A stretch of DNA of 64,000 nucleotides, taken from the NCBI GenBank assembly GCA_027077805.1, contig JALWTS010000033.1, positions 1-64,000 of the forward strand, written 5' to 3'. Source of the DNA: Gammaproteobacteria bacterium (lineage in GTDB: Bacteria > Pseudomonadota > Gammaproteobacteria > JABHGC01). The notes beneath the pieces were generated by a model that did no database searches, had not been told where the DNA came from, and saw only the letters and a program-made list of their open reading frames with translations. How positions within the stretch are numbered: the first letter of the stretch is position 1; the number at the start of each line of letters is the position of its first letter. The position numbers and the translations under genes are program-made. Shown here in pieces: positions 46,963-49,121 of the stretch.

Positions 46963-47085
46963 AAGATTTTTCCGATTTTTTATTTTTAATTCTCCCAGCA
47001 AGTTTAATCCTTGAAATTTAATCTGCAAGCCCTAATATTAATGTTGTTGTCGGCGTATTTTACTATTATGGAAGGAATGCCTATT

Positions 47086-47307
47086 ATGAGTGCGGTTAAT
47101 TACCTGAAAACGAAAATATTACCTAAACGTAATCCATTGATGTTAGCTTTAGCAGGTTTGTTGTTACTACTGATTATGCCTAAGTCTTGGGTTATCTTAA
47201 GTACCGTTGTGGCTTTAGTTGCCGTAGCGGTTTTACCTTATGTTTTAGAATTTATCGAAGAAATTGACAAAGACCCCAAATCTTTAGATTGGTCTGAGTC
47301 CAAATAA
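47086..47307 (+). CDS. Small membrane protein, about 73 residues
   Basis: Begins MSAVNYLKTKILPKRNP and has two hydrophobic segments (about 18-32 and 35-55) around a short turn, ending in the acidic tail EEIDKDPKSLDWSESK. AAGGA lies nine bases before the ATG at 47086; an upstream ATG at 47011 would run into the divergent adaptor gene. Followed by a strong hairpin. The function is unknown; a small two-TM inner-membrane protein is all that can be said. Confidence 0.6.
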   Translation: MSAVNYLKTKILPKRNPLMLALAGLLLLLIMPKSWVILSTVVALVAVAVLPYVLEFIEEIDKDPKSLDWSESK

Positions 47308-47379: not shown

Positions 47380-48120
47380 ATGTCCTCATCCGCTGATCAA
47401 ATTTATCGTCAACCAATCAACAATATTAGTGATTTTGTATTTGATAGTAAAGTTGCGGATGTATTTGCCGATATGGTTGTACGCTCAGTCCCTGCCTATG
47501 ATAGTATTATTACGATGACAGGTGCTTGGGCGAAACAATATGTTTCTCCAAACAGTTACTGTTACGATTTAGGTTGCTCATTAGGTGCGAGTACTTTTGC
47601 GATGATTCACCAAATTCCGCATCAAAACTATCAACTATTTGCCATTGATTTATCGCCTGCCATGCTACAACGCCTACAGCAACAATTAAAATCCAAACAA
47701 ACCACAGCACCCGTTAATTTAATCTGTGCGGATATAGAAGCGATAAATATTAGCAATGCCTCTATGGTAGTGTTAAATTTCACCTTACAATTCATTGCCC
47801 CTCAACAACGTTCGGATTTATTAAACAAAATTTACCAAGGCTTATTACCGAATGGTATTTTAATCCTATCGGAAAAAATAGCATTTAATAATGTTGCTGA
47901 ACAACAATGTTATCAAACTTGGCATGAAGCCTTTAAACAGGCTCATGGTTATACCAAACTGGAAATTAGCCAAAAACGCCAAGCCTTAGAACAAGTATTA
48001 ATCCCAGAGACCATTGAACAACATAAAAAACGGTTTCTTAATACAGGCTTTAAGTATTATACTCATTGGTTACAGTGTTTAAATTTTGCCTCATGGATTT
48101 TATATAAACAGAGACCTTAA
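47380..48120 (+). CDS. cmoA: Carboxy-S-adenosyl-L-methionine synthase CmoA
   Basis: Makes carboxy-SAM from SAM and prephenate, used for the cmo5U34 wobble modification of tRNA. 246 residues: FVFDSKVADVFADMVVRSVP, SIITMTGAWAKQYV, the SAM motif CYDLGCSLGASTFAMI, AIDLSPAMLQRL, VLNFTLQFI and YTHWLQCLNFASWI. Very close in layout to the E. coli enzyme (247). Its usual partner cmoB is not next to it. Confidence 0.96.
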   Translation: MSSSADQIYRQPINNISDFVFDSKVADVFADMVVRSVPAYDSIITMTGAWAKQYVSPNSYCYDLGCSLGASTFAMIHQIPHQNYQLFAIDLSPAMLQRLQQQLKSKQTTAPVNLICADIEAINISNASMVVLNFTLQFIAPQQRSDLLNKIYQGLLPNGILILSEKIAFNNVAEQQCYQTWHEAFKQAHGYTKLEISQKRQALEQVLIPETIEQHKKRFLNTGFKYYTHWLQCLNFASWILYKQRP

Positions 48121-48302
48121 TGTATTAAAATCTAAAAAAACCAATTATTTAGTGAAAGTTCTGGAAATTTCGGTATTATAAATAAATAATCGTTATAATA
48201 CAATGAAACTTATTAATAAAATCCTAGGGGCTAGTAACAGTTAATAATAATCTGATTAAATTTTAACAAAATTAATCGTTTTTAAGTAGATATTTTCGAG
48301 GC

Positions 48303-48331
48303 TTGCATTAAATAATCGATTGTATTATGAT
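48303..48331 (+). promoter_or_regulatory. Sigma-70 promoter driving the ncRNA candidate
   Basis: TTGCAT (48303-48308) and TATGAT (48326-48331) separated by 17 bp, near the housekeeping consensus. It faces the 48338-48755 stretch with no protein gene, so the product would be an RNA. Confidence 0.55.
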
Positions 48332-48337
48332 TTCACT

Positions 48338-48755
48338 TTATATAGATTAAAGGTTTTAGCTTGTGACTGAAAGTCATTGACAGTAATTACAAAGTGACTC
48401 AATCATTCATTATCGTAAAATCAATGAATAGGCGATACCTTTTATCGTTTCGGCGAGAATTGATGTTAATGGCTGATGCACTCCAGGAAACACTGATGGG
48501 AATTGACTGGCACGGAGGAGTTAGCATCATTCAAGGGAATGATGTGACCGCCCCTCCAGGACTCTAGCTCTATCGTTGAGACGGTTAAACATAGGCAGAG
48601 AGCGAAAGACCTACTGAATAGATAGATACGATTAGTTATGTGTAGATTTATTCAGATTTTTAGGATCGGTTAAAAATTATCGCTAAATTTCTAAAACTAA
48701 TGAATTTAGTTTGTTTCTCAAAAAAAGCCATCGAGATACACTTGATGGCTTTTTT
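48338..48755 (+). ncRNA. Candidate structured small RNA, about 420 nt
   Basis: A gene-free stretch that has a promoter and ends in a strong terminator. Its middle (about 48460-48620) is markedly richer in G and C than the surrounding sequence. It folds: GGAGG (48514-48518) pairs with CCTCC further on, enclosing a perfect 8-bp hairpin of CATCATTC and GAATGATG. Six or seven GGA triplets (CAGGA, GGGAA, GGAGGA, AGGGA, CAGGA) occur in about 110 nt, reminiscent of CsrA-sequestering RNAs, but most lie outside clear loops and the CsrA consensus is incomplete. It lacks the RNase P, tmRNA, 4.5S and common riboswitch signatures. No protein of normal codon use is encoded. A new RNA family or a divergent CsrB/RsmZ type are both possible. 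Confidence 0.45.
48721..48755. terminator. Bidirectional intrinsic terminator between the RNA candidate and yraN
   Basis: 12-bp perfect stem AAAAAAGCCATC (48721-48732) / GATGGCTTTTTT (48744-48755) with an 11-nt loop. T runs lie on both strands, so it ends the + strand RNA and the - strand yraN transcript, whose stop codon is 7 nt away. Confidence 0.88.
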
Positions 48756-48761
48756 ATTGGC

Positions 48762-49121
48762 TTATTCAAATGCCGCTGCAATCCATTCAATTTCTGGCTG
48801 TTGTTGCGGGCAAATTGCCACGACATCAAATTGTACCGCCACTTGATCAATTAAACGCTGTTGCTGTAAATAATACAAGGCTGTATGTTTAATTTTTTGT
48901 TGTTTTTGCCAAGTAATACTTTCTAAAGCAGAACCAAACGTATTATTACGCCGATAACGTACTTCCACAAAAACAATGGTATTACGCTTACTACCCGCAC
49001 GCATAATCAAATCAATTTCACCACCTTGACAGTGATAATTTTGGGTAATGAGTTGATAACCTTGTTGTTGTAAATATTGACACGCTTGTTGTTCGGCTAA
49101 TTTACCTTGTTTGTTACTCAT
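48762..49121 (-). CDS. yraN: YraN family protein (UPF0102), endonuclease-like fold
   Basis: 119 residues of the UPF0102 family: LAEQQACQYLQQQGYQLITQ, the GGEIDLIMRAG segment with the Asp-x(n)-Glu-x-Lys-like nuclease arrangement, and TIVFVEVRYRRNNTFGSALE. The fold is Holliday-junction-resolvase-like, but activity is unproven. Last gene of the lpoA-yraN group, terminated by the strong hairpin. Confidence 0.93.
   Translation of the reverse strand: MSNKQGKLAEQQACQYLQQQGYQLITQNYHCQGGEIDLIMRAGSKRNTIVFVEVRYRRNNTFGSALESITWQKQQKIKHTALYYLQQQRLIDQVAVQFDVVAICPQQQPEIEWIAAAFE

Follow-up and report, generated by a model that had tools for sequence, protein, structure and literature searches.

A GC-rich gap between cmoA and yraN in a gammaproteobacterium: an unproven candidate for an orphan structured RNA

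The cmoA-yraN gap and its composition

The region studied here lies in a 64,000-nucleotide window (the whole stretch of DNA that was analyzed) from the 2.55 Mb genome of a gammaproteobacterium. Positions 48121-48761 form a gap of 641 nt between the converging genes cmoA (plus strand) and yraN (minus strand), with lpoA (minus strand) and then rsmI (plus strand) located beyond yraN (Table 1). No recognisable gene was found within the gap, in agreement with the first-pass annotation, which had described a gene-free stretch of about 640 bp. As both cmoA and yraN point into the gap, it cannot contain a leader for either neighbour. On the other side of cmoA, a 98-aa open reading frame (47011-47307), placed between an HlyD-like gene and cmoA, had no Pfam match.

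Table 1. Features of the cmoA-yraN locus (positions in the window; P, pairing probability)
Feature	Position	Strand	Remarks
cmoA	47380-48120	+	NCBIfam TIGR00740, E 2e-81
Alternative -10 hexamer TATAAT	48194-48199	+	Perfect hexamer, weak -35; consensus match only
Predicted closing helix GAAAC/GTTTC	48205-48209/48713-48717	+	Adjoins the terminator; P 0.97, single-sequence prediction
Predicted long imperfect rod, 5' arm	48249-48298	+	Pairs with 48603-48658
Previously proposed promoter TTGCAT-N17-TATGAT	48303-48331	+	8/12 consensus bases; poor -35
Alternative 13-bp helix 48444-48456/48573-48585	48444-48585	+	Surrounds the core hairpins; model R1 is based on it
GC-enriched core	48450-48649	+	45% G+C, window mean 37%
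Predicted core hairpin	48514-48557	+	P 0.74-0.99 in all contexts folded
Predicted long imperfect rod, 3' arm	48603-48658	+	With an RNA start at 48338, local hairpin 48614-48655 is predicted instead
Intrinsic terminator	48721-48755	Both	15 pairs, T run at the 3' end
yraN	48762-49121	-	NCBIfam NF009150, E 1.4e-41

The GC-enriched core that had been noted previously was clearly recovered: it peaks at 54% G+C per 100 nt, the top value among all gaps of the window, while the start and end portions of the gap are very AT-rich. The genome's own RNA genes are also raised in G+C, with 43% for rnpB, 47% for tmRNA and 51% for 6S RNA against 33-42% in their flanks, and GC-rich intergenic regions such as this one have been reported to be enriched in structured RNAs (PMC8632094). 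The patch argues against the main and close rival to an RNA gene, which is doubtful but by no means far-fetched, namely that the gap is an unselected spacer, or a remnant of lost or foreign DNA, whose sole functional part is a two-way terminator for cmoA and yraN. In favour of that rival, many GC-rich gaps without any homologue may be junk (PMC8632094).

Two further compositional observations were made. The gap at 1-684, cut by the left window edge, also has a GC-rich stretch, reaching 51% per 100 nt near position 456. Moreover, an [AT]ATCG motif, often TWATCGTW, recurs in the cmoA-yraN gap at 48188, 48274, 48314, 48411, 48443, 48571 and 48678 on the plus strand, and at 48633, 48437 and 48321 on the minus strand. 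The pattern T[AT]ATCG[TAC][TA] has seven matches in the gap compared to a shuffle mean of 0.7 (maximum 4), and no segment of equal length elsewhere in the window exceeds this count, although the pattern was spotted post hoc; this is possibly a DNA-binding motif.

Transcription signals and predicted fold

The intrinsic terminator, AAAAAAGCCATCGAG-ATACA-CTTGATGGCTTTTTT, showed pair probabilities of 0.97-0.98 and a local z of about -5, so that its earlier description as excellent was borne out; a simple terminator scan missed it, as the T run was counted as part of the stem. Being bidirectional, it could end transcripts of cmoA, of yraN and of an RNA from the gap. Scanning found no terminator between 48120 and 48721, and an RNA from the gap would lie on the strand of cmoA. 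Both observations favour a long cmoA 3' untranslated region, possibly processed to a 3'-end-derived sRNA, with no promoter of its own. However, 600 nt is an unusually long 3' end, and the leading 210 nt of the gap are unstructured (z -0.77), which makes this reading quite improbable.

Regarding transcription initiation, the promoter proposed in the first-pass annotation is indeed present, but only eight of its 12 bases agree with the consensus, and it scores under the threshold of the promoter scan. Such sites are frequent by chance in DNA as AT-rich as this: the scan returned 14 promoter-like sites, where 8.6 +/- 2.9 are expected by chance. As TATAAT occurs 86 times on both strands of the window, the hexamer at 48194 is also weak when taken alone.

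The folding potential of the gap was then compared to that of shuffled sequences. The region 48340-48760, which includes the terminator, had a z of -4.0, much of which is due to the terminator, whereas without it the core gave -1.97 (48444-48585), -2.23 (48444-48664) and -2.21 (48338-48715). The claimed folded core with nested stems thus stands in that it folds better than shuffles, but it does so only moderately once the terminator is left out (core z about -2). The fold of 48444-48585 is strand-asymmetric, the minus strand having a z of +0.91, and this speaks against an unselected spacer. On the other hand, 12 random 221-nt segments of the window had z values between -2.4 and +1.4, and one of them (z -2.38) stood at the same level as the core, as a spacer or remnant would have it. 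Genuine RNA genes gave -4.0 (rnpB), -3.3 (tmRNA, for which the strand folded was that given in the locus, the tmRNA match there being on the minus strand) and +0.1 (6S RNA). Since random controls reach the z of the core, and the genuine 6S RNA has only +0.1, a z score cannot decide here for or against an RNA.

A longer fold, begun at 48203 and without the terminator, reached a z of -3.14, better than at the nine other 5' ends tried and equalled by none of 60 shuffles, with the 5' end having been picked after the fold was viewed. There, the two arms of a long imperfect rod are predicted to pair, most helices having P 0.74-0.98. The core hairpin (GGAGG..GCATCATTC-AAGG-GAATGATGT..CCTCC) was predicted irrespective of the context folded, while the alternative 13-bp helix, with P 0.68 when 48440-48720 was folded alone, is absent from the longer fold. 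In addition, an ungapped inverted repeat (48235-48284/48623-48672) has 37 of 50 positions paired, a value matched in 3-5 of 1000 shuffles (0.3-0.5%), also when local composition was kept, and 211 other 641-nt segments contained inverted repeats of at most 34 pairs; a repeat at this level argues against an unselected spacer. Together with the TATAAT at 48194, the repeat may place the RNA start near 48206 rather than at approximately 48338, even though the former is a post hoc find and the agreement between fold and hexamer is suggestive only. A switch helix (TGATGCACTCC/GGAGTTAGCATCA) competing with the core hairpin was also considered, and dropped as the alternative was 12 kcal/mol worse.

Known RNA families, coding capacity and CsrA

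No family of Rfam 15 reached its gathering cut-off in the gap, which bears out the previous statement that no standard RNA signature matches, and nothing credible was obtained at E <= 5; the overlapping hits at that level, AaHKsRNA41 (48653-48754, which includes the terminator) and snR39, were both far under the cut-off. The tmRNA, RNase P and 6S RNAs are located elsewhere in the genome and not in 48121-48761, and ARAGORN detected no tRNA or tmRNA within the 64 kb window.

The gap could instead yield the mRNA of a small protein, encoded by the open reading frame 48394-48567 (57 aa) or from an inner start at 48463 (34 aa, MLMADALQETL...). The inner frame has a codon score of 0.088, above 95% of the 414 spurious open stretches in the window. 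Nevertheless, the 57-aa frame has an ordinary codon score, with 26% of spurious frames being as good, GC3 is 0.44-0.47 against 0.28 in genes, and there was no Pfam, PHROG or NCBIfam match, nor a homologue in 369 genomes or in plasmids. Coding is hence an improbable explanation.

The first-pass annotation had also pointed to six to seven GGA triplets and, as one reading, to a CsrA-titrating RNA. CsrA is encoded in this genome, and seven GGA were indeed counted in 48338-48730, four of them AGGA, as an RNA of the CsrB/RsmZ kind would have it. However, this number is not above chance, as dinucleotide shuffles contain 7.2 on average. In high-affinity CsrA sites, a stem presents ANGGAX in its loop (PMC4005645), whereas in sampled single-sequence folds the GGA of the gap are mostly or partly paired, each with a hairpin-loop probability of at most 0.03, and only the one at 48559 is often unpaired (P 0.33-0.47, likewise in single-sequence folds). 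Moreover, RsmZ carries eight GGA within 127 nt (PMC4005645), compared to seven in about 420 nt here, none of the Rfam models for CsrB, CsrC, RsmY and RsmZ matched the gap, and the CsrB model (RF00018) had no match in the genome. The titration claim consequently fails, and we consider a CsrA sponge at this locus very improbable indeed; as CsrA is encoded, the genome may have an unrelated Csr RNA at another locus. Overall, the earlier observation on 48121-48761 is sound in outline and partly confirmed, with its GGA element attributable to chance.

Relatives, interpretation and comparison with known RNAs

When the gap was used as a BLAST query, neither 36 relatives nor 369 genomes of the class returned anything beyond the gap itself and weak matches of 29-44 nt; these fall in AT-rich parts or in the terminator and are given no weight. 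In the 369 genomes, a covariance model built from the single sequence 48444-48585 recovered nothing but its own source, and a covariance-model search of the relatives' cmoA and yraN loci gave nothing credible. Likewise, no homologue was detected by DNA search in plasmids and phages, the exact core pattern did not occur in viral contigs, and GTDB contigs with cmoA relatives had no similar RNA beside cmoA. The gap is single-copy in its genome and one arm of the repeat lacks a good second copy, by which a repeated or mobile element was rejected.

The lack of a homologue among all these relatives, class genomes, plasmids and phages favours a spacer or remnant, as does the fact that the cmoA-yraN neighbourhood is not kept in the only other family member among the genomes searched. 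There, yraN is at a contig end, and the gene closely 3' of cmoA is one that, by eye, we take to be rng (ribonuclease G). Yet the YraN of that genome is only about 52% identical, a distance at which an RNA evolving at the usual pace would no longer be recognised, so the absence of homologues is weak evidence against an RNA; no second sequence was found from which to judge covariation.

Altogether, a long gap with a GC patch like those of the rnpB, tmRNA and 6S genes, a strong terminator, a fold that is better on the plus than on the minus strand and the inverted repeat speak for an RNA, whereas the missing homologue, a terminator that may belong to cmoA and yraN alone, the modest core z and weak promoters speak against it. 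Our preferred reading, held tentatively and with slightly less than even confidence, is that the plus strand of the gap carries a free-standing gene for a structured RNA, restricted to this lineage and acting in trans. The GC patch, terminator, moderate fold and convergent setting are consistent with such an orphan candidate outside Rfam, unproven as it is. With the intrinsic terminator as its 3' boundary, the RNA would span approximately 48206-48756 (550 nt) or 48338-48756 (420 nt). Since both neighbours face the gap and there is no downstream gene for control in cis, its most likely mode would be trans action through base pairing or protein binding; its transcription, start point, stability and mode of action are all inferred here. 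The more specific proposal of a new family, with a structured RNA of about 550 nt whose ends are held by a rod-like helix in one poorly sampled gammaproteobacterial lineage, for which the searches yielded no second member, appears unlikely. If transcribed and conserved, the candidate would represent a further lineage-restricted large RNA of a class under-sampled by current databases; at present, it is one among many relative-less GC-rich gaps, and merits an entry among listed candidates, not a claim.

In comparison to known systems, the gap is like CsrB, CsrC and RsmXYZ in being free-standing and intergenic, with an intrinsic terminator and some AGGA, and unlike them in having neither GGA enrichment, nor loop-presented GGA, nor a CsrB match. 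The motifs promoted from GC-rich intergenic regions had at least two representatives and covariation, while 48121-48761 is a single known sequence; with the orphan candidates of that study it has in common a long gap, GC-rich against an AT-rich genome, with no coding or Rfam match (PMC8632094). Finally, whereas RNase P RNA, tmRNA and 6S RNA have clear Rfam matches elsewhere in this genome and the gap matches none of them, it resembles these RNAs in size range, in raised G+C and, according to the long fold, in the joining of its predicted 5' and 3' ends.
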